From assembly GCA_021817245.1 (NCBI GenBank), contig JAKAVQ010000004.1:51403-115402 (forward strand): a DNA stretch of 64,000 nt. Direction: 5' to 3'. Shown here in pieces: positions 1 through 42,635 of this stretch; position 1 is the first letter of the stretch; the number at the start of each line of letters is the position of its first letter. The translations under genes and the position numbers were made by a program. Under the pieces are notes generated by a model that worked only from the letters and a program-made list of their open reading frames with translations, did not search any database and was not told the origin of the DNA. The stretch is from Thermoplasmata archaeon. GTDB lineage: Archaea > Thermoplasmatota > Thermoplasmata > Lutacidiplasmatales > UBA184.

Positions 1-1384
1 CGGTGGCGGAGACCGCGGTCGCTACCGGCTGCGGCGTGGAGTTGGTCCAGAGATACTGCTCGATCGGGGTGGACGGAGCGAACGTGAGGCCCGACAGGGA
101 GGCGGTCACCGGGGTCGTGGTGTTGACGTTCACGAAGAGGTTGGCGAGGCCGGAAGCGCTCGCCGTGGTGACGGCGAAAAAGGTCGACGGTCCCGAGACG
201 TTGGTCGGGACGGTCTCGCTCCCGAGCCGGGAGCCGAGGTCCGAGAAGAGGTAGTACTGGCCTTGCCAGGAAAGAGGTCGGGTCGACCAGGAGCCCTGGT
301 AGGAGCTGTCGTAGGCAAACCAGTCGAGGTTCGTGACCTGGAGGGTCAGTCCCTGGACGAGCTCGGCCGCGAGATAGAGCGTGCCCGCGAACGTGGGGAG
401 GAGGTTCAAGTACGGGCTCACCTCAGCGGCGTTGATCTCGGTCACGAAGACCGAGAGCTGGGAGCAGTTCGGGCAGCCGGCCGCGAGGTACGCGCGGTCG
501 GCCGCGATCTGGGCCGGCAGCGAGTAGTATCCGCCGAGGTTCGAGAACAGCTCGGCATCGGACGGGTTCGAGGGTCCCCCCTCGATGTACGAGTGCACGG
601 AGACGCCCGCGAGGCGCTGCCCGTCGACCTTTGCGAGCTCCTCGACCCAGGCCTTGTCGTAGTTCTTCCCGCCCATCCCCGCGCCCAGCGCGAGGAACTG
701 GCCCGAGGGGTCGACAGACCGGACCGCCGAGATGTAGTTGCCCACGAGCGTCGCGAACGGCGCCGGCGTCGTGTTCCCTCCACCGGTTGTCGCCCATTGG
801 GACCAGGGGACGCTGTAGTGGGTCCACCCGCTCGGGTCGTTGCCGATCTCCCAGTACGCCGGCTGGAAGCCCAGCGCGTGGACAACGTAGTTCGCGTAGT
901 CGGCCGCGGTCGCGGGACTGTTGATCTCGGCGGGGAGCTCGAGGATCGCTCGGCACCCGATGAGCTCGCACGCGCTGACGAACTCGGCGACCGACGTCGT
1001 CGCGGTCTTCTGGACGCCGCTCGGAGCGGTGAGGACGGACGTCGTATAGTTGTACTCCTCCGCGAGGTTGCCCGCCGGGAACCGGATGTAGTTCACGGGC
1101 GTCGAGGCGACCGCCGTCGCGTCCGAGTTGTTGAACCGCTGGGCGGCCGCCGCGTTGATCCCCCAGAAAGGCCCGGGGACGGCCTGCGCGCTCGAGAGTG
1201 GGGCGGTGGCCACTTGGGCGTTCGAGGACGTTCCGGACGCGGTAAGCGCGGGGGAGGGACCGTCCGGGCCCGCCGGGAACGCCGCCACGGTCGCCAAAGA
1301 GGAAAGGAGAAGGATCGCGAGGGCCACGAGGACCGCGGGCCGCGGGGCGCGGCGACGCGGGCGTCCGCTCCGGGGAACTTCCAA
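1..1384 (-). CDS. Secreted glycoside-hydrolase-like protein (clan GH-A / GH79-GH51-like fold), copy 1; C-terminus runs off the left edge
   Basis: Manual reverse-strand translation from a TTG at 1384: LEVPRSGRPRRRAPRPAVLVALAILLLSSLATVAAF (signal peptide)...FWGINAAAAQRFNN...YIRFPAGNLAEEYNYTT...YWEIGNDPSGW...VFVTEINAAEVS. Parallel to the ORFs at 12132 and 21715. Not in the ORF track (no stop inside the window). Confidence 0.88.
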   Translation of the reverse strand, partial: MEVPRSGRPRRRAPRPAVLVALAILLLSSLATVAAFPAGPDGPSPALTASGTSSNAQVATAPLSSAQAVPGPFWGINAAAAQRFNNSDATAVASTPVNYIRFPAGNLAEEYNYTTSVLTAPSGVQKTATTSVAEFVSACELIGCRAILELPAEINSPATAADYANYVVHALGFQPAYWEIGNDPSGWTHYSVPWSQWATTGGGNTTPAPFATLVGNYISAVRSVDPSGQFLALGAGMGGKNYDKAWVEELAKVDGQRLAGVSVHSYIEGGPSNPSDAELFSNLGGYYSLPAQIAADRAYLAAGCPNCSQLSVFVTEINAAEVSPYLNLLPTFAGTLYLAAELVQGLTLQVTNLDWFAYDSSYQGSWSTRPLSWQGQYYLFSDLGSRLGSETVPTNVSGPSTFFAVTTASASGLANLFVNVNTTTPVTASLSGLTFAPSTPIEQYLWTNSTPQPVATAVSAT

Positions 1385-12131: not shown

Positions 12132-13601
12132 GTGCGCGAACTGAGATTTCGTACGCGCCGGTGGCCCGCCTATCTTCGGTTGCGGATCCGCCGTACGCTG
12201 ACGGTCGCCGGTCTTTGCCTGTTGATGCTATCGTTCGCATGGCTCACCGGCCCTCTCGGCCATGCATCCGCCGTCTCGCCCACCGGGAGCGCCGTGACGC
12301 TCGCGACCACCACGAGCTCCGCCAGCGTTACGGTCGGGGCGTTCTCGACCGCCACGCCCGTCCCGAGCTCCTTCTGGGGCGTGGATGTCGCAGCTCTCCA
12401 GCGCTTCTCGTCCACGGATGCCGGCTATGTGGCGAAGACCCCAGCGACCTTCATCCGGTATCCCGGAGGAGTACTGGGCGAGGAGTTGAACTACACCTCC
12501 GGCGTGGTGACCGCCAGCAACGGCGCCCAGTCGAAGGTCCCCACGACGGTCGCAGAGTTCGTCGCGTCCTGCAAGCTGATCCACTGTCAGGCGATCTTCC
12601 AACTACCCGCCGAGATCAACTCGCCCTCGACCGCGGCCTACTTCGCGAGCTACGTAGTTCACCAGCTGACGTACCAGCCGGCGTACTGGGAGATCGGCAA
12701 TGCGCCGAGCGGCTACAAGCACTTCGGCCAGCCGTGGAGCAAGTGGTCGCAGGGAGACACGGGCAACGTGACGCCCCAGCCGTTCGCGAACCTGGTCCAC
12801 ACGTACATCGCGGCGATCCTGCGGGTCGATCCCGCCGGGCACTTCATCGCCCTCGGGGCGGGGGAGGCCGGCAACAACTACGCGAAGGCGTGGGTCGTCT
12901 CCCTCGTGAAGACGGACGGGGCGCAGCTCTCGGGAATCTCCGTCCACTCCTACATCCTGGGCGGGCCGAGGCACCCCAGCGCGAACCAGCTGCTTGCGAA
13001 CCTTCGCGGATTCTACGCGCTGCCGGCGCAGTACACGGCCGACGCGGGCTACATCCATCAGGCCTGCGGCTGCGGCCGAATCGGCGTCTTCGTCACGGAG
13101 ATCAACGCCGCCGAGGTCGGCTCGTACACCACGCTGCTGCCGACGTTCGCCGGGACCCTGTATCTTGCGGCGGAGGTCACGCAAGGACTTGCGCTCCGCA
13201 CGCCGAACCTGGACTGGTTCAGCTATGACTCGTCGTACCCGGGCGCGTGGTCCCAAAGCCCGGGCCACTTCCAGATGCAGTACTATCTCTTCGCCGATCT
13301 CGCGACCCACTTCGAATCGAAGTATCTGCCGTCAAAGGTGGTCGGGCCCACGACCTTCTATGCCGTGGTGACGTACGGCGTGAAGGGACTCGCCGTCTTC
13401 CTCGTGAATACGAACACCTCGGGCTCGCTGACCGTCAACCTCAGTCACGCCGGGATCAAATCCGGTGCGGCCGTGACCGACTTTTCGTGGAACGGAAATA
13501 CCCTCCAACCGAGCTCCTCGAACGCCGCGATGAAGAGTACGGTCACGATCGGACCGGAGAGCATCTTGCTGATCGTCGCCCCACCGACGTCGGTGGTCTA
13601 G
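12132..13601 (+). CDS. Secreted glycoside-hydrolase-like protein, copy 2
   Basis: Signal peptide RRTLTVAGLCLLMLSFAWL; FWGVDVAALQRF...FIRYPGGVLGEELNYTSG...YWEIGNAPSG...GISVHSY...VFVTEINAAEVG; C-terminal beta domain; upstream acatata box. Confidence 0.88.
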   Translation: MRELRFRTRRWPAYLRLRIRRTLTVAGLCLLMLSFAWLTGPLGHASAVSPTGSAVTLATTTSSASVTVGAFSTATPVPSSFWGVDVAALQRFSSTDAGYVAKTPATFIRYPGGVLGEELNYTSGVVTASNGAQSKVPTTVAEFVASCKLIHCQAIFQLPAEINSPSTAAYFASYVVHQLTYQPAYWEIGNAPSGYKHFGQPWSKWSQGDTGNVTPQPFANLVHTYIAAILRVDPAGHFIALGAGEAGNNYAKAWVVSLVKTDGAQLSGISVHSYILGGPRHPSANQLLANLRGFYALPAQYTADAGYIHQACGCGRIGVFVTEINAAEVGSYTTLLPTFAGTLYLAAEVTQGLALRTPNLDWFSYDSSYPGAWSQSPGHFQMQYYLFADLATHFESKYLPSKVVGPTTFYAVVTYGVKGLAVFLVNTNTSGSLTVNLSHAGIKSGAAVTDFSWNGNTLQPSSSNAAMKSTVTIGPESILLIVAPPTSVV

Positions 13602-13879: not shown

Positions 13880-16384
13880 ATGAACTCCCCGCTCTGGATC
13901 CCCCGAAGAACCGCCGCCCGTGCGGCGACGTGGGTGCTCGTCGTATTCGCGATCGCGGCATTGGTCGGTACGATCGGCGTTTCGACCGCGCCCGGCCTGG
14001 GGTCGGCGTCGGTCCTCCCGGCCCCAACGCTCTCGCCCGCCGCGACGGGCTTCCCCACGCCGATCCAGCACGTGATCACGATCTTCATGGAGAACAAGGA
14101 GCGCTCGACGGTGCTCAACCAAGGGCCGTTCCAGGTCTCGCTGCAGAACCAGTACGCGTACTCCTCGACGTACTATGCGCCGTGCCACCACTCGGCGCCC
14201 GAGTATCTCGCCGCAACGTCAGGACAGACGCTCCAATGCGGCAGCGACGCGTTGAACAGCTACTCGGTCAACAACATCGGTAACATGCTCGATACGGCCG
14301 GGATCCCCTGGAAGTCGTACCAGGAGTCGATGCCGACCCCGTGCGACAAGTCGAACTCGGGCAACTACGCCTACCGCCACAACCCGTTCATCTACTATAG
14401 TGACCTCGGGAGCAACTGCGCGGCGAACGACGTTCCGTTCACCAACTGGAATCCGAACGCGACGAGCCAGCCCGCCTACATCTGGGTGACGCCGAACGTT
14501 CTCGACGATGCGCACAACACCAACACCTCCTACGGCGACGCCTGGCTCAAGGTCTTCTTCGACGGAGGGTCGTACACCTCCTCGTCCGACCTGCACGGCT
14601 GGAAGGGCATTCTCAACGAGCCCTGGTTCAGTTCCACCGTCGTCTTTGTCACCTATGACGAAGGGTCGACCTCGGCCGGCTACTCGGTCCCCGGGGTGTC
14701 GAACAGCTACTGCACCAACGGACTCTCGGTCTGCGGCGGGAACATCTATTTCTCGGCGGTGAGCCCGTACTCGAGCGGCGTCGGCCTGGTTTCGGGGGAC
14801 GCGACGCACTACAACCTCCTCGCGACGGAAGAGTGGCTCCTCGGCCTCCCCTGCACCGGCGGCGGCCTCGACTGCAACTCCGGTTTCCCCGCGATGACGG
14901 GGCTGTTCCACTTCACGAGCACGGGCTCGTCGAGCTTCTCGGTGGGGGGGAGCGTCGTGGATCCGAACGGGACCGGTCTTTCGGCCGCGACCGTCTACGC
15001 GAACGGTTCGACGGACTCGACCGCGAAGACGGGAAGCACCGGCAGCTTTTCCTTCACGCTCGCGAACGGCACCTACGCGATCACCGCCACCGACCCCGGA
15101 TATCAGGGGGGCTATGCGAACGTCACCGTGCGCGGAGCGAACATCACCGGCCTCACGGTCACGTTGACGCCCCTCAACTCGTCCGGGTCCACGTTCTCGG
15201 TCGGCGGCACCGTCAGCGATAGCTCGAACGGGACGGGCCTTTCCCGCGCAGCGGTCTACGCGAACGGGAGCTCCTCCTCGATCTCCACGACCAGCGGTAC
15301 CGGCGGCGCGTTCGGGTTCCATCTTCGGAACGGCACCTACCGGATCACCGCCACCGCCGCCGGCTACCTGTCGGCCGCGACGAACGTCACCGTGCACGGG
15401 GCGGCCGTTTCAGGGCTAGTCCTTGCGCTCGCGCCGAGCGGCGGACCGTCGTCCAACTACACGGTCGAGGGCCGGGTCACGAGCGCGGTCAACGGCGCCA
15501 ACGTTTCGGGTGCGACCGTCTACGCGAACACGAGCTCGACCTCGATCTCCTCCACATCGGCAGCGAACGGGACGTACCTACTGGCGTTGCCCAACGGCAA
15601 CTATTCATTGACCGCGATCGCCGCCGGGTTCCTCCCCTCGAGCCGCAACCTCACCGTCGCCGGTGGTCCGCAATCCGGGGTCGACCTCGCACTTCCGCCC
15701 GCGGCGGTCGGATCCGGGGCGTACACCCTATCGGGGACGGTGACGAACGGGACGAGCGGCCTTCCGGTTCCCGGGGTGACGGTGTACGCGAACGCCAGCG
15801 GCACCTCTCAGGTCACGGCGGCCGCGGCCAACGGCACGTTCGGATTCCTGGTAGCGAACGGGTCATACGAGCTCACGGCGACCGGAGCAGGCTACGTTCC
15901 CTCCTCGATCAACGTCTCCGTCGCCGGAGCGAACCTCGAGGGCGTCAACCTCTCGCTCGCCCCGAACGGGACCCTTCCCACGGACGGTGTTGTGACCAAC
16001 GCGGTGGACGGAACACCGGTGGGCAACGCGACGCTGACGTTCGAGAATGGGACGACGGTGGTCCAAGTCCGCACTAACGGAACGGGGGGCTACGCGGTTC
16101 AGCTCCCGCCCGGCGACTACCTGGTGTCGGTCCAGGCCACGGGATTCTCGGTGACCACCTCGCTCGTCTCCATGCACGCGCGAGCGGGGGCCGACTACAA
16201 CTTCGCTCTCGCCCCTGCCCTCTCGGCGGGACCGGGGAACGGTGGAGGATCGATGCTGCCCGTCGGTGCCGTACTCGTGGTGGCGATCGTGGCGGGGATC
16301 GCGGGCGTGCTCGCCCCCGGAATCCTCCGCCGCGGGTTCTTCCACCGCGGGCTCTTCCGTCGCCGCCCGCCGCGATCTCGGTAG
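13880..16384 (+). CDS. Exported phosphoesterase (acid phosphatase / phospholipase C-like, PF04185 type) with five carboxypeptidase-regulatory-like repeats and C-terminal TM anchor
   Basis: HVITIFMENKE...YYAPCHHSAPEYLAATSGQT...VVFVTYDEGS; repeats such as FSVGGSVVDPNGTGLSAATVYANGS; TM VGAVLVVAIVAGIAGVLAPGIL. Confidence 0.85.
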   Translation: MNSPLWIPRRTAARAATWVLVVFAIAALVGTIGVSTAPGLGSASVLPAPTLSPAATGFPTPIQHVITIFMENKERSTVLNQGPFQVSLQNQYAYSSTYYAPCHHSAPEYLAATSGQTLQCGSDALNSYSVNNIGNMLDTAGIPWKSYQESMPTPCDKSNSGNYAYRHNPFIYYSDLGSNCAANDVPFTNWNPNATSQPAYIWVTPNVLDDAHNTNTSYGDAWLKVFFDGGSYTSSSDLHGWKGILNEPWFSSTVVFVTYDEGSTSAGYSVPGVSNSYCTNGLSVCGGNIYFSAVSPYSSGVGLVSGDATHYNLLATEEWLLGLPCTGGGLDCNSGFPAMTGLFHFTSTGSSSFSVGGSVVDPNGTGLSAATVYANGSTDSTAKTGSTGSFSFTLANGTYAITATDPGYQGGYANVTVRGANITGLTVTLTPLNSSGSTFSVGGTVSDSSNGTGLSRAAVYANGSSSSISTTSGTGGAFGFHLRNGTYRITATAAGYLSAATNVTVHGAAVSGLVLALAPSGGPSSNYTVEGRVTSAVNGANVSGATVYANTSSTSISSTSAANGTYLLALPNGNYSLTAIAAGFLPSSRNLTVAGGPQSGVDLALPPAAVGSGAYTLSGTVTNGTSGLPVPGVTVYANASGTSQVTAAAANGTFGFLVANGSYELTATGAGYVPSSINVSVAGANLEGVNLSLAPNGTLPTDGVVTNAVDGTPVGNATLTFENGTTVVQVRTNGTGGYAVQLPPGDYLVSVQATGFSVTTSLVSMHARAGADYNFALAPALSAGPGNGGGSMLPVGAVLVVAIVAGIAGVLAPGILRRGFFHRGLFRRRPPRSR

Positions 16385-16463
16385 CACGGGGGCCCCGCCG
16401 TACGTCCGGTTTCGGGCGCAGGTTCATAAAGGAGTGAAAACCAGCTTGGACACAGAGGACGCG

Positions 16464-19400
16464 ATGCGACGGGAGATGGCCCTCGGGAGCTCGCCACCGG
16501 TGAACGTTCGGAAGGACTCCTCTTCCGGTGCCCGACGGGTCTGGGGCGCCGACACGGCGCCCTCCCGGGTCCTCCTCGCCCTGGCGGTCGCGATCACCGT
16601 CGGGATGCTCCTTGCCGGGCTATCCCCGGTCCTCTTCGCACCGTCGTCGACTCCGGGCACCTCCCCCGCCGCTTCGACCCAGCTTGCGGCCGCGGCGGCG
16701 TCGCTCGCGTCGGGGGCCGGGCCCGCGGGCGGCCAACCGACCGCGTGCGCGACGACCGGAAGCGGGAGCGCCGCCTGCTCGCCGACCTCGACCTCCGCGA
16801 TCCCGGCGGTGCTGCCGATCGTGAACACGACCGGAGGGCGCTGGGTGCCGGTGAACTACTCGCGCGCCTACACCTCGCTCGCGTACGACGCCCGCAACGG
16901 CTACGTTCTCGCCTTCGGCGGCCTCGGCCCGACCGGCCCGCTCGGAGACACGTGGAAGTACCAGCACGGCAACTGGACGATCCTCCTGACCGCCACTGCG
17001 CCTTCGCCCCGATGGGGAGCCGCGATGACGTACGACGACTCGATCGCGAGCGTCGTCCTCTTCGGAGGGGAGAATGGCACCACCTACTTCAACGACACGT
17101 GGGAGTTCGAGGGAGGAATCTGGACGAACGTCACGACCGCCCACTCGCCGAGCCCCCGTGCCTTCGCCGGGCTCGCGTTCGACGCGAACACTTCCGACAA
17201 CTACACCGTCCTCTTTGGGGGCAACGACGCCTCCACGGTCTTCGGTGACACCTGGGTCTTCCACGGCCAGAACCACACGTGGAGCCAGCTCGCGCCCATC
17301 GCGGCCCCGGCCGCGGTGACCGGCGCGAGCTTCGTGTTCGACCGGCACATCGGCTACGCGGTCCTGTTCGGTGGACTTCTGCCGAACGGCACGTACTCCT
17401 CCGCGACGTGGGAGTACCTCAACGGGGTCTGGACCCAGCCCGTGGAACTGATCAGTCCCCCCGCCCGCGCGTTCGCCGGCATGACGTACGACCGGGCGAG
17501 CAACGTCCTGGCGCTCGTGCTCTTCGGAGGCAACTCGAGCCTAGGTTACCTCGGCGATACCTGGGAGTTCGTGGGTCAGAGCTGGGTCGAGATCTCGCCG
17601 GGCACACCCGGACTCGGCGCCCGCGCGGGCGCGTCGATCACGTTCGACGGTCTGCACCCCGGCGACTTCTATACCGTCCTCTGGGGCGGGTTCAGCGGAA
17701 CCTCCACCTTCTACTCCGACACTTGGAACTTCACCGGCACCGCATGGAGCGAAGTCACCCCGGGCGGTCACCCGACGGCCCTCAGCGGTGCCAGCCTCGT
17801 GGACCTTCCGAACGCCGGCTACACCGTCCTCTTCGGCGGGCTCGGCCCGCTCGGGCCGACGAACGCGACGTGGCTCGAGCGCGGTGGGTCGTGGACGCTC
17901 CTCTGCGGCGCCTGCGGCCCCTCTCCGCGGTACAACGCGGCCGCCAGCTACGATCGTAAGCTCGGCGCCGTGGTCCTGTTCGGAGGCACGGCCGGCGGAT
18001 CGACGTACTTCAACGACACCTGGGAGTTTGTCGCGGGCCACTGGCTCAACGTCACCGGGGGCGCCGCCCCCTCGGCCCGGGACCTGGCCGCGTTCGCGTA
18101 CTACACGACCCCGCTCAACGTCTCGGTCCTCTTCGGGGGGTACAACGGTGCGACCTACCTCAACGATACCTGGGAGTTCAGTGCCGCCGGTTGGAGCGAG
18201 GTCCCGGTCGCCGGCCCGCACTTTCCGCCGGCCACACGCGCCGACGCCGCGATGACCGACGACGGTCCGGACGGGTACATGCTCCTCTTCGGAGGGTACA
18301 ACGGCGGCACGCTCTTCAACGACACGTGGATCTTCCGGGGCGCCCTGGGGGAGTGGTTCCCGTTGACCCCGGTCCAGCACCCCTCCGCCCGCTACGGGGC
18401 GCGCATGGTCTTTGACCCCTACAACGGGTACGTCGTCTTCACCGGCGGTGCCAACCACACCGCCATCTTCAACGACACTTGGGAATTCCGGGGCGGCAAC
18501 TGGACCCAGTTCCTTGCCCCGAGCCCGCCGCCCGCCCGGAGCGACGCGGCGATGGCATTCGACCGGGCCGACAAGTTCCTGGTGGTCTTCGGGGGCTCGG
18601 GACCGGGCGGGATTCCCTACTCCGACACGTGGCTGTGGGTCGCGTTCAGCGCCCAGGCCACGGCGACCCCCAATCCGACCGATGTCGGAATCCCGGTGGC
18701 GTTCGGTGTCTCGGCGGTGGCGGGGGTGGAGCCGTATACCTACGCGTGGTCGTTCGGCGACGGTCAGTCGACGACCTCTCCGACGCCGTACCACACCTAC
18801 ACGGCCCCCGGTAGCTACAACGCGTCGGTCACGGTGACCGATTCCCACGCCGGGACGCCGGACGTGACGGTCGCGAACGTCACGGTCGTCGTCAACCCAA
18901 CCCTCTTGGCGAGGGCGTCGGCCTCTCCGACGGTCGCGGTCCAGTCCCAGCCGGTCGCCTTCACGGTGACGACGACCGGAGGAACGCCGCCGTTCACCTA
19001 CGCGTGGAACTTCGGAGACGGTGCGGGAGCGTCGGTCCAGAGCCCCGCGCACGCCTACGCCGCGGTGGGAACGTACACGGCGAGCGTGGTCGTGAACGAT
19101 TCGGCGGGCAATTCCGTGAGCAGCTCGATCGCGGTCGACGTGACCACCTCGGGCCTGACCGCAACGGTGTCCGTGCTGCCCAACGTCACGGACGTTGGAG
19201 TACCGGTCGCGTTCCACTCCGTCCCGACGGGAGGCACGGCACCGTACACGTACGCCTGGTTGTTTGGGGACGGCCAGAAGAGCTCCACGCAGAACACCAC
19301 GCATGCCTACGCGACGGCCGGCACCTTCCACGTGGTGTACTGGGCCAACGACAGCGTGGGGCAAAGCTACTCGGCGTCGCTCTCGGTGACGGTCGCTCCG

Positions 19401-19886
19401 CCCCCGAAGGTGGGCGCGTTCACCGTGAGCCCGACCTCCGTCAACGTAGGGGCCAGCGCGAGCTTCGCGGTCTCGGTCTCGGGGGGTACCGCACCGTACA
19501 CCTTCGTGTACACCGGCCTTCCCGCCGGCTGCTCCTCGGCGAACGTGTCGACCCTGACCTGCGTACCCACTTCGGCGGGAACGTACCCGGTGAAGGTGAC
19601 GGTCACCGACGCGTTCGCCCAGGCCGCCAACGCTACGGTGACGCTGACCGTGAACGTCTCCCCGTCCCCGACCCCGGGCCCGAGCCCGGGCGGCGGCGGG
19701 GGTGGCCTTTCGACCACGGAGCAGTACCTCCTCGTCGGCCTCGTGGTAGTCGTGATCGCGGCCGCCCTGATCGCGCTCCTTCTCCGACGGAGGAAGCGCG
19801 GGGCGTCGGTCAAGTCGGGCACGGCCCCGCCGAACTCGTCGCCGGCCTCCCCGGGCGGCGGGACCGGCAAAACCGGGGGCAAGTAG
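16464..19886 (+). CDS. Exported kelch-repeat protein (12 kelch-like repeats) with about 4 PKD-type domains and C-terminal TM anchor
   Basis: Repeated VLFGGxxxxTxFNDTWEFxxxxW; PKD motifs YAWSFGDGQS, YAWNFGDGAG, YAWLFGDGQK; TM LLVGLVVVVIAAALIALLL. Confidence 0.92.
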   Translation: MRREMALGSSPPVNVRKDSSSGARRVWGADTAPSRVLLALAVAITVGMLLAGLSPVLFAPSSTPGTSPAASTQLAAAAASLASGAGPAGGQPTACATTGSGSAACSPTSTSAIPAVLPIVNTTGGRWVPVNYSRAYTSLAYDARNGYVLAFGGLGPTGPLGDTWKYQHGNWTILLTATAPSPRWGAAMTYDDSIASVVLFGGENGTTYFNDTWEFEGGIWTNVTTAHSPSPRAFAGLAFDANTSDNYTVLFGGNDASTVFGDTWVFHGQNHTWSQLAPIAAPAAVTGASFVFDRHIGYAVLFGGLLPNGTYSSATWEYLNGVWTQPVELISPPARAFAGMTYDRASNVLALVLFGGNSSLGYLGDTWEFVGQSWVEISPGTPGLGARAGASITFDGLHPGDFYTVLWGGFSGTSTFYSDTWNFTGTAWSEVTPGGHPTALSGASLVDLPNAGYTVLFGGLGPLGPTNATWLERGGSWTLLCGACGPSPRYNAAASYDRKLGAVVLFGGTAGGSTYFNDTWEFVAGHWLNVTGGAAPSARDLAAFAYYTTPLNVSVLFGGYNGATYLNDTWEFSAAGWSEVPVAGPHFPPATRADAAMTDDGPDGYMLLFGGYNGGTLFNDTWIFRGALGEWFPLTPVQHPSARYGARMVFDPYNGYVVFTGGANHTAIFNDTWEFRGGNWTQFLAPSPPPARSDAAMAFDRADKFLVVFGGSGPGGIPYSDTWLWVAFSAQATATPNPTDVGIPVAFGVSAVAGVEPYTYAWSFGDGQSTTSPTPYHTYTAPGSYNASVTVTDSHAGTPDVTVANVTVVVNPTLLARASASPTVAVQSQPVAFTVTTTGGTPPFTYAWNFGDGAGASVQSPAHAYAAVGTYTASVVVNDSAGNSVSSSIAVDVTTSGLTATVSVLPNVTDVGVPVAFHSVPTGGTAPYTYAWLFGDGQKSSTQNTTHAYATAGTFHVVYWANDSVGQSYSASLSVTVAPPPKVGAFTVSPTSVNVGASASFAVSVSGGTAPYTFVYTGLPAGCSSANVSTLTCVPTSAGTYPVKVTVTDAFAQAANATVTLTVNVSPSPTPGPSPGGGGGGLSTTEQYLLVGLVVVVIAAALIALLLRRRKRGASVKSGTAPPNSSPASPGGGTGKTGGK

Positions 19887-21349: not shown

Positions 21350-21714
21350 GGCGAAATTCGCCGGACGCGGCCCGGGAGTGCGGTTGCATGCGGGCCCTCG
21401 CGCGCGGGACGCCGGGGGTCCCCGTCGTCCTTCGCCCCCTCGTCGCGCTCTCGCTCGCCGCCTCGGAGGATGCTACCGACCCGGTGCGCGTCCACGGTCT
21501 TCGTGAGAGCGGATTTCGAAAACACGCTCCTAGATTAGGCTAGTGAGGGGTAGGGCCGCTCGGCCGTGCTCCTCCTTCCCTCGAGGAGACGGTCGACCGA
21601 CGGATCCGGTAGCGACCACCCCATTCGGCGGGGCGCCCGGGACCCCGCCGCCCGCGCGGGGCCGGTGTGGGACACAAGCTTATCTCGGGACCCCGGGGAG
21701 CAGGACCGACTGAG

Positions 21715-23178
21715 ATGTGCTCCCGTAGGTATCGGCTCCTCGGCTTCTCCGTTCGGCGGCGCTCCCGCCTCCTGATCCCACTCGCGTTGGCGTTGCTGGT
21801 GGCGGGAACGACCTGGATCGCCTTTCCCCTTCGGGCGGCCCCCGGGGGCCCGATCTCCGCTGCGCCGGGGATCGCGACCGTCGAGCTCCAGAGCCCGGCA
21901 AATGCGACCACGATCTCGGCGGCGTACTGGGGAGTGAACGTCGCCGCGGCCCAGCCGTTCGGTCTCTCCGACGCTCGAGCGGTCGTCGCCACCCCCGTGA
22001 ATTACCTGGTGTACCCCTCGGGGGTCCTGGCCGAGGAGCTCAACTACACGTCCGGTGTGTTGACCGCCCCGAACGGCACCTCGACCCCGGCGGCGACCAC
22101 GGTGGCTCAGTTCGTCACCGCGTGCGAGTCGATGCACTGCCGCGCGATCCTCGGCCTCCCCACCGAGATCAACAGTCCCGCGACCGCGGCCGACTACGCG
22201 AACTACGTCGTCCATACGCTGGGCTTCCAGCCGGCGTACTGGCAGATCGGAAACGCCCCGGCCTCCTGGACCCACTTCAACGTTCCTTGGAGCGAGTGGC
22301 CGACCACGGGTGGGGGGAACACGACGCCCCAGCCGTTCGCGGATATCGTGCACACGTACATCGCCGCGATCCGCTCGGTCGACCCGACCGGGCTCTTCCT
22401 CGCACTCGGTGCCGAGACCGGACCCCCCCAGTACGATCGGGCCTGGATCTCCGCGCTGGTCGCCACCGACGGCTTAGAACTGTCGGGGATCTCGGTGCAC
22501 TCCTACGTCCTCGGTGGCCCGTCCTCGCCGACCGACGCGCAGTTGTTCGCGGAACTCCACGGCGCGTACTCGCTTCCGGCGCAAGTGCTCGCCGACCGAT
22601 CCGACATCGTCCGGGCCTGCGCGTGCCAGAACCTCCCGCTCTTCGTGACCGAGGCGAACGGCGCCGAGCTGAGCGACTTCATGCCGCTCCTCTCCACGTT
22701 CGCGGGGACCTTCTATCTCGCCGCCGAGGTCACCCAGGGGCTCGGGCTCTCCCTGACGAACCTGGACTGGTTCAGCTACGACTCCGCGTATCCCGGATCC
22801 TGGTCGACCTCGCCAGGGGTCTGGCAATCGCAGTACTATCTCTTCGCGGACCTCCTGCCGCTCCTCGGGAACGAGTCCCTTCCCCTGAACGGAACCGGAC
22901 CTCCGACGTTCTTCACGGCCGCGACGCTCGGCAGCGGGGGACTCGCGCTCCTGCTGGTGAACGTGAACACCACCGCGCCGGTACAAGTGGCACTGGGAGG
23001 GCCCGAGTTCGCCGGGGTTGCGATCGCCCACGAGTACTACTGGGACGGCGCCTCGAGGCAACCGGTCGAGTCTACCGCACTCTGGACCGGCAACCTCACT
23101 CTCGGGCCGGAGAGCCTCGCGCTCCTGCTCGTGAATGCGGGTGCGGGCCCGATGAATCTCACCTCCGCGTGGCCCTGA
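21715..23178 (+). CDS. Secreted glycoside-hydrolase-like protein, copy 3
   Basis: Signal peptide RRRSRLLIPLALALLVAG; YWGVNVAAAQPF...YLVYPSGVLAEELNYTSG...YWQIGNAPASW...LFVTEANGAELS. Confidence 0.87.
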   Translation: MCSRRYRLLGFSVRRRSRLLIPLALALLVAGTTWIAFPLRAAPGGPISAAPGIATVELQSPANATTISAAYWGVNVAAAQPFGLSDARAVVATPVNYLVYPSGVLAEELNYTSGVLTAPNGTSTPAATTVAQFVTACESMHCRAILGLPTEINSPATAADYANYVVHTLGFQPAYWQIGNAPASWTHFNVPWSEWPTTGGGNTTPQPFADIVHTYIAAIRSVDPTGLFLALGAETGPPQYDRAWISALVATDGLELSGISVHSYVLGGPSSPTDAQLFAELHGAYSLPAQVLADRSDIVRACACQNLPLFVTEANGAELSDFMPLLSTFAGTFYLAAEVTQGLGLSLTNLDWFSYDSAYPGSWSTSPGVWQSQYYLFADLLPLLGNESLPLNGTGPPTFFTAATLGSGGLALLLVNVNTTAPVQVALGGPEFAGVAIAHEYYWDGASRQPVESTALWTGNLTLGPESLALLLVNAGAGPMNLTSAWP

Positions 23179-36994: not shown

Positions 36995-38188
36995 TCACTT
37001 GAGGATCGGCACTCCCAGGCGGTCGAGCGCCCGCCGACGAAGGTCGGTAAGCGCATTCATGTAGTTCGCGTAGGCGTCGTACGGACTGTCGTAGCTCGAG
37101 AAGTAGCGGTGCACCCCGAGGTCCCCCCCGTGCCCGCCCGCGTAGATGTAGTACAGGTGATCCGACGTCAAGAGCTTCCGCCAATCCTCGAGGATCCGGG
37201 GATCCCCGGCCTGATGCGCGAGGACCCCGACCTTCTTCGCGGCCTCGAACGCCGAACGCTGGAGGTCGCTCCCGAGCCAGGCCCCGAGGTCCCGGTTCTG
37301 GTCGGCCCAGCTCATCGTCCGGGGGACGCTGATCGGCGCTCGGGGCGTGGTGGCGATCGCTTCCTCGACGGTCGCCCAGCTCAGCCCGGAGTGTCGGCGG
37401 ACCTCGGAGGGGAGCGCGCTCAGGAAATCGAGGATCCCGGTGCGTGCGCTCTGGTGCTCCCCGAATGTCTCAAAGTCCATGAACAGCCCCAACACGTCGC
37501 CCGTCGCGCCGGCGAGCCAGCGCGCGTACTTCTCGGCCGTCAGGGGATACTCGCTCCACGACGTCGAGGAGAAGCGAAAGGCGATATCGTCGCTCAACGG
37601 ATAATGTCGCAGGAGGACGAGGACCGTCGGGGCCGGCGCGGCGCAGTAGACGTGCGTCGCCGGAGCGCCGTGCAGCGCCTTCTCCCACCCTTCGGCGAGC
37701 ATCCCGTGGAACCGCTCCGCCTCGGCGAAGCGGGCGAGCTCGTCGGAATAGGCGAGCTCGGTCATCCGCAGGACCTTCGGCTCCGCGCCGAACTCGGACC
37801 GGAGGATCGCCCGGTGCATCGCCACCTCTTCGGCGAGCTCTGGCGCCGGTAGCAGGAACGCGAGGGAGTGATAGTAGGTCTCCGCGAGGAGCGAGACGCG
37901 GCCGGTCCGGTAGAGGGACCGGAGCCGATCGATCACGTCGGGGGCCGCGAGACGCGCCTGCTCGAGGAAGGTCCCGGTCACGGAGAGGCTCAGTCGGAAC
38001 TCGCCGTGTTCCGCGAGCGCGCGCTCGAGCCGGTCGAGCGCGGGCCGATAGCATCGTTCCGCGATCCCCCGAAAGATCGTGAGGTTGCGCTCCACATCGA
38101 AGTAGGACCGCCCCGAGCCGAGGTCGAGGAAGCGGAATCGGGCGAGCCGCCACGGTTGGTGCAGATGGAGGTACAGCACGATCTTCAT
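36995..38188 (-). CDS. Glycoside hydrolase family 57 (alpha-amylase-type)
   Basis: MKIVLYLHLHQPWR; AETYYHSLAFL; RMTELAYSDEL (nucleophile region); MDFETFGEH. Confidence 0.92.
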   Translation of the reverse strand: MKIVLYLHLHQPWRLARFRFLDLGSGRSYFDVERNLTIFRGIAERCYRPALDRLERALAEHGEFRLSLSVTGTFLEQARLAAPDVIDRLRSLYRTGRVSLLAETYYHSLAFLLPAPELAEEVAMHRAILRSEFGAEPKVLRMTELAYSDELARFAEAERFHGMLAEGWEKALHGAPATHVYCAAPAPTVLVLLRHYPLSDDIAFRFSSTSWSEYPLTAEKYARWLAGATGDVLGLFMDFETFGEHQSARTGILDFLSALPSEVRRHSGLSWATVEEAIATTPRAPISVPRTMSWADQNRDLGAWLGSDLQRSAFEAAKKVGVLAHQAGDPRILEDWRKLLTSDHLYYIYAGGHGGDLGVHRYFSSYDSPYDAYANYMNALTDLRRRALDRLGVPILK

Positions 38189-39043
38189 GGACCTCGCGAC
38201 CCGGGCGGGCTCCCCCTCCCGACTCGGTGTGACGGGGTCACGGATCGGTCGCGTAGGACTTCGAACGGCCGCCGCCGGACCTCGATTCCCGCCGTGGCGA
38301 TGCGCGGAGCCGGGACCCGAGACGCATCGCGGAGGTCCACAGAAGCGGGGGGCTTGCTCGCCCGGGGACCGGGCCAGAATCCTCGCGCAGATTTGGAGCG
38401 GCGCGCCGCATCGGTGGCGGACGCCGAAGCACCTTCGACGCCCTCGCGGGGCAGCAGGGTCGCGCCTCGGAAGGGATTCTCCACGAAGTCCATTCTCGCG
38501 CCCGGAGGGGTCCCCGTGGCCTTTAACCCGTCGGTGGCCACCGAGCGAGGGTCCCCTCAAACCTCCCGAATCCTCGCAGCTCGACCGGGATCGCGAGGGT
38601 CACCGTGGCCGGCGGCTCCCGCGAAGGTGATCGCAGGCCGGGGGAGGAGCTACCAGGAGGGGACCGGAGAAAGCTCCCGCCGTCGTGACGAGCGCGTGCG
38701 GGCCACGGTCCCGCGCTCTACCCACTCACGGGCCGCCCGAAAGCGCCGCGAGAGTCGACGAGGTTTCGCCCGGAGTGCCGTCGTCTCCGAGGAACCCGGA
38801 CCCGGCGCCGGGCGCGCGATGCGGCACCGAGAGCATGGCGCCGGCGTCGCGAGACCGATCAGACCGAGGGCGAAAGCGACCGCGGCTCGACGCTTTCTCT
38901 ACGCGCGCGTTCGAAGCGCGGACGCCGCGCGCTGCGCGACGAGCGCGTCGGGGGGCCCGCGTGCGAGCCTGTCACGTCAGGTACAGGGAACCGGTTTCCC
39001 GATTAGACTGACGTATATGTAGGAGTACGAGGCCAAAGCGACT

Positions 39044-40009
39044 GTGCCGCCGATAAGTCGACGGCTGCCGGTGGTGGCGGGCGCGCTAGGAGCAATACTG
39101 CTCCTGGTGATTGTCGCCCTGTTTTCCGGCACCGCTAGCGCAGCCGCAGGAGCGTCGAGCATAGGGACGACGGCGAACGCGCCGAGCCTGAGCTACTCGA
39201 AGACCTACTACGGAACAATGACACATCGGCCCGGGAACGCCCCGGACGTGCTCGTGCTTCCCTCCCCACCGGTGGGGAGCTGGTGGCAGATCAAGACCGT
39301 GCAGCTGACCGGTCACTTCGGGACGAAGACCGGGTTCGATCAGGACGCGTTCCTCTTCACGCGGACGGTCCAGAATCCAAACTCGTACCCGGGACTCGCG
39401 GACCCGAACCTGGATGTCCTGGCCCACATGGGGATCCAGAGCGGGAAGCTGGGAACGAAGGTCGGCGCGGGTGGGACGGGGCCCTCCCCGAACTCCGCCT
39501 GGAGCTGGTACCGCTTCACGCAGCCGATCCAGCTGAACTCCGAGATCCAGATCGTCATGGGGGCGATCATCGGAATGGGCAACTCGGTGACGGTCACGGT
39601 CAACTACGCGAACCTGGGCAGCGGCACGACGATCGTGGAGTACGGGGCGAACCTCTACCTGAAAGGGGGAGCCCTCACCTTTAGGATCGCGGCGCCCGCC
39701 GGCAAGAGCTGGTACTTGATGAACGCCTTTGCCGACATCAAGGCCAGTTCGAGCGGTTCCCGGTCGATCCTCATCCGGACCTCGACCGGAATGACGCTCG
39801 ACCAGGGCAGCAACTTCCCGGTGGGAGTGCTGGTCCGGTGCACCGGGGGCTACTCCACGGTGCAGACCGGACCCGCGTTGAACCGGTACGGGACGCAGAC
39901 CGTGTGGGGGCCGCAAGTCTCGCTCTACGGAACGGAATACATCACGGCGCAGTTTACGGGACCCGCGACCGCCCAGGCCATGTGGGTGCTCGTGTTCACC
40001 CAGGTGTAG
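39044..40009 (+). CDS. Secreted protein of unrecognised beta-rich family, copy 1
   Basis: Signal/TM PVVAGALGAILLLVIVALFSGTASA; NLDVLA..GAGGTGPSPNS..W...QPIQLNS...GKSWYLMNAF...GGYSTVQTGPALN; shared with 40253-41143. Confidence 0.85.
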   Translation: MPPISRRLPVVAGALGAILLLVIVALFSGTASAAAGASSIGTTANAPSLSYSKTYYGTMTHRPGNAPDVLVLPSPPVGSWWQIKTVQLTGHFGTKTGFDQDAFLFTRTVQNPNSYPGLADPNLDVLAHMGIQSGKLGTKVGAGGTGPSPNSAWSWYRFTQPIQLNSEIQIVMGAIIGMGNSVTVTVNYANLGSGTTIVEYGANLYLKGGALTFRIAAPAGKSWYLMNAFADIKASSSGSRSILIRTSTGMTLDQGSNFPVGVLVRCTGGYSTVQTGPALNRYGTQTVWGPQVSLYGTEYITAQFTGPATAQAMWVLVFTQV

Positions 40010-40252
40010 AAAGGCGACGGACGCAGCTCCGGATCCGGGACCGACGCGTGCGTCGCCGTCGGTCACCAACCCCTTCCTCCCCCGGGGGAAGCGTCGCCCC
40101 TAAGGTCCGTCCACGACGGCACGACCCTCATCCGATTGTCGGGGGGTGCACCCGTTACAAAGAACCGAAGGCCTGCCGGTGCGATGGACGAAGGCACCGT
40201 TTCCGCGTTCTCGAGGCCCGGCCGACGCGGGTCGCTCCTCACGTGGACGACG

Positions 40253-41143
40253 ATGTCGATCATGGGACTCTTCAACCCCCACCCCACGGCCGGGCCGCCC
40301 GCGGGGGCCGGACGGTATGCCGAGACGTATGCCGGCACCGCTACGGCGAGAGGACCGCACGTACCGGACGTAGCCACGGTCCTGCGTCCCCCGGAGGGGC
40401 GGGTCTTCGAGCTCACCGGCGCCCGCATCACGGTCCACGCGGCGGTCCCCGCGGGGTGGCGCCAGCACGCGTTCTTCTTCAGCCGGTTCGTCCGGGTGAC
40501 CGAAGGCGACGAGACGCTCTTCAATCCGAACCTGGATTTCCTCGCGACCGCCCCGATCAAGCCCGGAGAGACCGGCCTCTTCGTCGGAGCGGGGGGGACC
40601 GGGTCCTCCCCCCACTCGACGGGGAGCTGGACCGCGTGGGCCCAGCCGCTCCGGCTGAACTCAGGACTCGAGGTGATCTTCGGTTCCGACCTGGCGGTCG
40701 GGAATTCGGCGGACCTCGAGCTCGCCTGGACCGACGCGGGGCCGGGAGTCAGCGTCGTCCGGTTCCTCCGTCACCGAGGCAACGGGGAGCGCCGGCTCTT
40801 TTCGGTCGGTCCTCCCCCACCGGGGAAGAGGTGGTACCTCCACAACGCCTACCTCCGGTGCGTCGTCGCCGATGCCCCGGGCGACCGGACGGCGGTCGCG
40901 GCACGGCGCTCCGATCGCGGGGTCCTCTGCGAGGTCGTCCACTTCGCCCCGGGGGACCGGCTCCAGTCGACCGGAGGCTACTCGACCTACCAGACCGGCC
41001 CGGCGCTCAACCCCGCCGCGAGTCGCACCGTGTACTCCACGCCTCAATGGGTCGGCCCGGGAGATTGCGTCGACGTGACGTTCCGAGGAATCCGCGGCGA
41101 CAAGTTCCTCTACGCGCTCTCCTTCACGGAGCTTCCGGAGTGA
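40253..41143 (+). CDS. Signal-less paralog of the 39044 protein, copy 2
   Basis: NLDFLA..GAGGTGSSPHSTGSW...QPLRLNS...GKRWYLHNAY...GGYSTYQTGPALNPAASRTVYSTPQWV; start uncertain (ATG 40253 or up to 40136). Confidence 0.82.
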   Translation: MSIMGLFNPHPTAGPPAGAGRYAETYAGTATARGPHVPDVATVLRPPEGRVFELTGARITVHAAVPAGWRQHAFFFSRFVRVTEGDETLFNPNLDFLATAPIKPGETGLFVGAGGTGSSPHSTGSWTAWAQPLRLNSGLEVIFGSDLAVGNSADLELAWTDAGPGVSVVRFLRHRGNGERRLFSVGPPPPGKRWYLHNAYLRCVVADAPGDRTAVAARRSDRGVLCEVVHFAPGDRLQSTGGYSTYQTGPALNPAASRTVYSTPQWVGPGDCVDVTFRGIRGDKFLYALSFTELPE

Positions 41144-41183
41144 GCGGCCGCCGGGAGCGTCGCTCCCCGCGCGGGCCCACGTC

Positions 41184-42635
41184 TCACGCGGGTCCCCGCC
41201 CTTCGCGCGCGGCTTTCGCTTCGAGATAGACTCCGACGGTCTCCCGCGCCCGCTCGGACCACCCCTCGCGGAGGGCCTCCCACCGGCCGGCCTCGCCCAT
41301 CGAGGTCCCGAGGGTCGGGTACTCGAGAATCTCGGCGATGCGGCTCGCGAACTCGTCGACGTCCCAGAAGTCGACGCGGAAGGTCGACGAGCTGATCTCG
41401 GCGATCCCGCTCGTCTTCGAAACGATCGTGGGCACTCCGGCCGCCATCGCCTCGAGCGCGGCGATCCCGAACGGCTCGACCACCGAGGGGAGCACGAAGA
41501 CGGACGCACCCGAGAGCAGGACCTCCCGTTCCTCCTCGCTCACCTTGCCGAGGAACATGACCCGGTCGCCGATCTCGAGCTGCGCCGCGAGCTCGACCAG
41601 GCGCGGATACTCCGGTCCCTCGCCGGCCACCACGAAGAGCGCGTCGGGCACCATGGGGGCGACGCGGGCCGCGGCTCGGAGATAGGTATCGACGCCCTTC
41701 ATCGCCGCGAGGCGACCGACGTAGAGGACGACCCGGCGTGTCGGGTCGATCCGCTCGAGTCGCTCGCTGGGCCGGACCGCGTTGTAGATGACGCGGACCT
41801 TGTCGGGGTCCGCATGGTACCGTTCGATCAGCTGCTGCCGAAGGTGCCGGCTGACCGCGATCACCCGATCCGCCGCGTCGATGCCGAGCTGTTCGTGCGA
41901 GAGGATGTGGTCCCAGGGATGGTTCAGGGAGCGATCGTACTCCGTGGAATGGACCGTCATCACCATCGGCCGGCGGGCCCGCCGGGCAAGATCACGGCCG
42001 CCGACGGTTCCGAACCAGTCGTGCACGTGCACGAGGTCAAACTCTCCGAGGTCCCGGCGCGCGGCGACCCACGCGTTGTACCCTTCGGTCGCGTTCGCAA
42101 AGGGGCTGTCCGGGGAAGCGCCGGCCCAGTAGGCGGGGGGGTACGTTTCCGTCGGGCCCCCCTCCACCGGCGCGGCGGATCGCTCCTCGCCCGGAGAGCG
42201 GAAGTCGACGCCCTCGACCGGGGTGAACGGACCGGGGAAGGGCGTGAGGAACGTGATCCGGTGTCCGAGGCGCGTGAGCTCCCGGGAGAGCTCGAAGCAG
42301 TGGACGCCGAGCCCCCCGGTGTGGCCGGGAGGCCACTCCCATCCCACCATCACGATGTGCAGCGGTCGACCGGTCCGCTCCCGGTCGGTCGCAACCGAAG
42401 GGACGCGGCGCAGAGGACGCGGCCGGCCCGAGCCCGACACCCCTGCGCGGGCCCCGTCGGATCGGGTCGTGCCCGTCTCCGATTCGCGTCGCACGCGGGG
42501 GTGGCCACGGCCCCGTCCCCCCGACCGGTGGCCCCCGACGGCCGCGGCCGCCTTCCGCGCGCGTCGGGGTCGCGCGGAGCTCTTTCGGGCGTGCGTTCGG
42601 GAGGTCATGGCGGTGTCCGGAATCGGGAGGAGCAA
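41184..42635 (-). CDS. Glycosyltransferase family 4 (glycogen/starch synthase-like GT-B)
   Basis: HIVMVGWEWPPGHTGGLGVHCFELSRELTRLGH...VHVHDWFG...YVGRLAAMKGVDTYLRAA...FGIAALEAMAAGVPTIVS; N-terminal ~90 aa doubtful. Confidence 0.88.
   Translation of the reverse strand: MLLPIPDTAMTSRTHARKSSARPRRARKAAAAVGGHRSGGRGRGHPRVRRESETGTTRSDGARAGVSGSGRPRPLRRVPSVATDRERTGRPLHIVMVGWEWPPGHTGGLGVHCFELSRELTRLGHRITFLTPFPGPFTPVEGVDFRSPGEERSAAPVEGGPTETYPPAYWAGASPDSPFANATEGYNAWVAARRDLGEFDLVHVHDWFGTVGGRDLARRARRPMVMTVHSTEYDRSLNHPWDHILSHEQLGIDAADRVIAVSRHLRQQLIERYHADPDKVRVIYNAVRPSERLERIDPTRRVVLYVGRLAAMKGVDTYLRAAARVAPMVPDALFVVAGEGPEYPRLVELAAQLEIGDRVMFLGKVSEEEREVLLSGASVFVLPSVVEPFGIAALEAMAAGVPTIVSKTSGIAEISSSTFRVDFWDVDEFASRIAEILEYPTLGTSMGEAGRWEALREGWSERARETVGVYLEAKAAREGRGPA

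Follow-up and report, generated by a model that had tools for sequence, protein, structure and literature searches.

The window, the 64,000-nucleotide stretch of DNA analysed here, is part of contig C26 of G000, the metagenome-assembled genome of a soil archaeon, which measures 2.31 Mb and has a GC content near 70%. This GC content, the genome size and the presence of GH57, GH15 and S53 genes suggest a probable placement in the order Lutacidiplasmatales (PMC9287336), and the named relatives are 'Thermoplasmata archaeon JOPF...' genomes whose source is tropical peat (PMC10250450). Two open reading frames, P0001 and P0002, lie in tandem on the plus strand at the positions given by a first-pass annotation, antisense to the genes for a GT4 glycosyltransferase and a GH57 hydrolase that flank them. 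The features of the locus are:

36995-38191, minus strand: GH57 alpha-glucan hydrolase, a core gene (present in 48 of 61 same-genus genomes), one flank of the insertion
39014-39021, plus strand: AT-rich TATA-like box TATATGTA, at -30 of P0001, assigned by consensus only
39044-40009, plus strand: P0001, predicted stand-alone double jelly-roll protein, 321 residues, GTG start
39185-39622, plus strand: predicted first jelly-roll of P0001, mature residues 14-159, with the PNLD and GAGG motifs (DSSP of the model; duplication test)
39626-40003, plus strand: predicted second jelly-roll of P0001, mature residues 161-286, with the TGGYSTVQTG motif (DSSP of the model; duplication test)
40155-40162, plus strand: AT-rich TATA-like box TTACAAAG, at -29 of ATG 40184, assigned by consensus only
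40184-41143, plus strand: P0002, signal-less paralog, 319 residues from the better-supported ATG 40184
41184-42356, minus strand: GT4/glycogen-synthase-like glycosyltransferase, a core gene, the other flank of the insertion

P0001 and P0002 are 34% identical over 274 residues (BLASTP, E 3e-47) and are true tandem paralogs; no third copy of their domain was found in the 2.31 Mb assembly. The motifs listed in the first-pass annotation as common to the two are all present and in the same order, except that copy 1 reads DPNLDVLA and not NPNLD. The annotation had also failed to recognise the family, and with reason: searches of Pfam, NCBIfam, PHROGs and PDB sequences gave no usable match, the sole Pfam match among the 13 members (P0001, P0002 and 11 homologs from outside this genome) being to DUF4453 with an E-value of 0.074.

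The nearest neighbours of the pair encode ROK, GH15, GH57, GT4 and TIM proteins. A part for the pair in alpha-glucan metabolism was considered, and is weakened by the finding that the GT4-GH57 junction is a variable insertion site. In 33 of the 42 relatives that have both genes on one contig, the gap between them is 20 nucleotides or less; it exceeds 1 kb in eight of the 42, G000 counted, and the seven others carry different cargo. The junction (window 38192-41183; L092-L098) is thus an insertion hotspot in this genus. Its cargo measures 1.4-5.7 kb in the eight genomes, and among the genes inserted in the others are those for a GH13-like enzyme and for β-propeller and vWA-like surface proteins, as well as nucleotidyltransferase toxin-like genes, most of them named by eye. 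Neither target-site nor terminal repeats were found around the insert. Since the pair is one cargo among several, the neighbouring genes say little about what it does, and its place among alpha-glucan genes is probably without bearing on function. Elsewhere in the window, three similar secreted proteins (1-1384, minus strand; 12132-13601 and 21667-23178, plus strand) share the motif FWG(I/V)..AA.QRF...TPV.Y(I/L)R(Y/F)P.G.L.EE.NYTS, and the two that were scanned have no Pfam match; another secreted protein, a large one encoded at 16242-19886 on the plus strand, contains Kelch repeats as well as PKD domains.

AlphaFold2 models, for which the underlying alignment had only 13 rows, are all-β for both P0001 (pLDDT 83.3, pTM 0.78) and P0002 (pLDDT 78.5, pTM 0.76), with 8-10 strands in each half and an internal duplication. 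Comparison of the profiles of the two halves gave an hhalign score of 26.2, against 16.9 or less in 30 column shuffles, which supports a duplication within each protein. The Foldseek matches are mainly double jelly-roll proteins (PNGase, PHM, PRD1 P3 and PM2 P2), together with the jelly-roll capsids IBDV VP2 and STIV coat. These models suggest that P0001 and P0002 each comprise two jelly-roll sandwiches in tandem, in keeping with the β-sandwich or jelly-roll that had been guessed from the sequences. The Foldseek E-values for the double jelly-roll proteins range from 5e-7 to 2e-5, yet global superposition gives TM-scores of no more than 0.42, with rmsd values of 7-20 Å, implying either that the two sandwiches are packed unlike those of known structures or that their packing is badly predicted. 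In the P0001 model there is no helix after strand F, and a helix of five residues follows strand F'. Taken together, the results suggest that the pair represents a previously undescribed kind of two-part β-sandwich protein.

Known double jelly-roll proteins of cells, such as PNGase F, PHM and DUF2961, are mostly enzymes, and cellular double jelly-rolls have been used in arguments on the origin of the double jelly-roll capsids. PNGase F and PHM (Pfam clan CL0612) resemble the predicted fold of the present proteins in that a single chain of some 300 residues, often secreted, holds two jelly-roll sandwiches; as in the P0001 model, no helix follows strand F in their first half. P0001 and P0002 differ from them, however, in lacking any sequence match, copper ligands or catalytic acids, and the TM-scores do not exceed 0.37. 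The copper ligands of PHM have no counterpart, as no His or Met is invariant, or nearly so, across the 13 members; with regard to PNGase F, there is no Pfam N-glycanase match and no invariant Asp or Glu. DUF2961/GH172 is likewise a cellular double jelly-roll that is secreted in some members (PMC8812541), as P0001 is predicted to be; none of the 13 members, however, matches a Pfam profile for it, and none of their acidic residues is conserved. The family has 18 invariant columns, mainly Gly and Pro with some N, Q, Y and S, and not one is D, E, H or C. This lack of an invariant acid, His or Cys speaks against an enzyme of any known double jelly-roll kind and points to a role in binding or structure. 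PHM and lysosomal PNGase are top fold matches and the neighbouring genes act on alpha-glucans; nevertheless, an enzyme resembling PHM/PNGase F or DUF2961/GH172 is highly improbable, given the solitary DUF4453 match, the lack of conserved His, Met, Asp or Glu residues to serve as copper ligands or catalytic acids, and an insertion that accounts for the glycan-gene neighbourhood.

Profile searches of 106 genomes from the order place homologs in seven, which belong to two genera of the same family. None was found outside the order in the class and phylum samples, and 390 genomes sampled across the phylum added no further ones; of two weak phylum matches (E 0.007-0.009), one fell in a frame interrupted by stops and the other in a β-propeller-like surface protein, and both were rejected. 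In 10 of the 11 outside homologs a signal peptide is followed by the module as the N-terminal, outermost part of a longer protein. In most of these ten the rest of the protein includes fn3 repeats and a membrane anchor at the C-terminus; the longest carry 1-6 fn3 repeats before a C-terminal membrane segment. This is the architecture of archaeal stalked surface proteins, in which signal peptide, tip domain, fn3 repeats and membrane anchor follow one another. P0001 and P0002, in contrast, correspond to the tip module alone, with neither stalk nor anchor, and P0002 is also without a classical signal peptide.

The remaining homolog, in a genome of the other genus (G122), is a stand-alone ortholog of P0002 with 64% identity and no signal peptide. 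The two differ with dN 0.28 and dS 1.17 (dN/dS about 0.24); the signal-less P0002 type is under purifying selection and is conserved in a second genus. The GH57 proteins of the same two genomes are 73% identical, a value that, set beside the 64% of the P0002 orthologs, is compatible with an old gene that has been widely lost. In the family tree P0001, P0002 and the G122 ortholog are separated from the anchored clade with support of 100/99. P0001 sits on a long branch (2.5), and such divergence means that its function may differ from that of the anchored homologs. In two genomes (L011:3274-4832 and L038:5637-7192) a gene for a nucleotidyltransferase toxin of the AbiEii type is oriented divergently beside the anchored homolog and has, upstream of it, a partner in the AbiEi position.

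The signal peptide that had been claimed for copy 1 is evident in P0001, where a hydrophobic core LGAILLLVIVALF with a mean Kyte-Doolittle value of 3.26 precedes TASA, as in a normal export signal. It takes up approximately residues 1-34, and there is no membrane anchor at the C-terminus; at 9% charged residues, the composition resembles that of an exported protein. The location of P0002 depends in part on its start codon. The first-pass annotation began the protein at ATG 40253 (MSIMGLF..., 296 residues), from which it has no export signal. The true start is probably ATG 40184, 23 codons earlier, which is favoured by the AT-rich box at -29 and by codon use that is coding-like from 40184 onward. 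The N-terminus so extended, MDEGTVSAFSRPGRRGSLLTWTTMSIMGLFNPHPTAG, contains a twin arginine in GRRGSL and then 28 uncharged residues, of which the hydrophobic part is weak (1.41).

This extension allows the possibility that both copies are exported, P0002 leaving through the Tat pathway from ATG 40184, with no intracellular form. The box and the onset of the coding signal fit such a start, the genome encodes TatC, and a similar combination of twin arginine and weak hydrophobic stretch occurs in 2 of 291 control genes. The Tat-like features depend on the 40184 start, however, and the G122 ortholog, which begins MSGSG behind an AT-rich box of its own, does not have them; a hydrophobic in-frame stretch upstream of that ortholog was rejected as an export signal, its codon use being non-coding-like and the box preceding MSGSG. 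Soluble proteins, too, reach hydrophobicity values such as 1.41. A composition classifier (cross-validated AUC 0.92, with only 13 secreted genes for training) gave secretion probabilities of 0.036 for P0002, 0.097 for the G122 ortholog, 0.29 for P0001 and 0.77-0.85 for the anchored homologs tested; two of the 13 secreted controls scored as low as P0002. Composition therefore leans towards a cytosol-like P0002 and an exported-like P0001 and anchored homologs. Export of both copies is unlikely on this evidence, and P0002 likely stays inside the cell. The cytoplasmic version proposed earlier thus draws support from the conserved signal-less ortholog and from composition, while its supposed freedom from any export signal is qualified by the probable 40184 start and the weakly Tat-like N-terminus found there.

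What, then, is to be made of the resemblance to capsid proteins? The double jelly-roll capsids (PRD1 P3, PM2 P2 and STIV coat) are, like the present proteins, recognised by Foldseek as tandem jelly-roll chains. They differ in that most members of this family have a signal peptide or are anchored at the surface, in that no viral genes were found among the neighbours examined, and in that the first half of P0001 has no helix behind strand F; the TM-scores are no higher than 0.31. The first-pass annotation had proposed a search for similarity to viral capsid or tail proteins; phages, PHROGs and two scans of viral contigs yielded no relative. A capsid gene that survives as a remnant or was domesticated, after a double jelly-roll virus had inserted itself between GT4 and GH57, would fit the fold matches, the position in a hotspot and the presence, next to an anchored homolog, of a tyrosine-recombinase-like gene. 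The neighbours examined include neither a packaging ATPase nor any other viral gene, however, and signal peptides in P0001 and most homologs, with fn3 repeats and membrane anchors in most homologs, speak for cellular proteins; we disfavour a viral origin and regard it as highly improbable. The recombinase-like gene (L040:620-1189) has a weak, below-cut-off match to Phage_integrase (E 1.3e-4).

Assembly need not involve a virus. The subunits might polymerise, P0001 outside the cell as a coat, thread or layer and P0002 inside it as a shell or filament. The capsid-forming PRD1 P3, PM2 P2, IBDV VP2 and STIV coat among the top fold matches, the stand-alone, single-module nature of both proteins and the existence of an internal paralog are all consistent with such a role. 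The low TM-scores are not, nor is the adhesin-like layout of most homologs, anchored and stalked, and a family found in so few genomes of the order is unlike a core surface layer; we consider assembly unlikely. A bolder version is very unlikely: it would add to the cellular double jelly-rolls an archaeal family that stands apart from the known enzymes, with P0002 self-assembling into a shell or filament and the secreted paralog and stalked homologs using the same fold at the surface, so that a non-viral assembly would be built on the capsid fold.

From the architecture of the homologs and the absence of catalytic residues we infer instead that the module is a non-catalytic ligand-binding or adhesin module. 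The stalked homologs carry it at the outer tip, the usual site of a recognition domain, so that a binding module is the simplest reading. We therefore favour, with a probability of roughly 0.5, an interpretation of P0001 and P0002 as variants of one cellular double jelly-roll module, confined to this lineage, that binds a ligand without catalysis, one form secreted and the other intracellular. The ligand would most likely be a glycan or another surface component, and the conserved GGYS-x-x-Q and PN-x-D motifs would be used in binding it, not in catalysis. P0001 would act as a binding protein released without a stalk, and P0002, as its intracellular counterpart, would bind that ligand or a related one; the two genes would have arrived as accessory cargo in the hotspot between the GT4 and GH57 genes.

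Such a family offers a concrete candidate for a surface module in an uncultured archaeal order. Being archaeal and non-enzymatic, with forms that are exported, anchored or signal-less, it would also add a new data point to the question of how the double jelly-roll capsids arose, and its importance would grow if the signal-less form proved to assemble.
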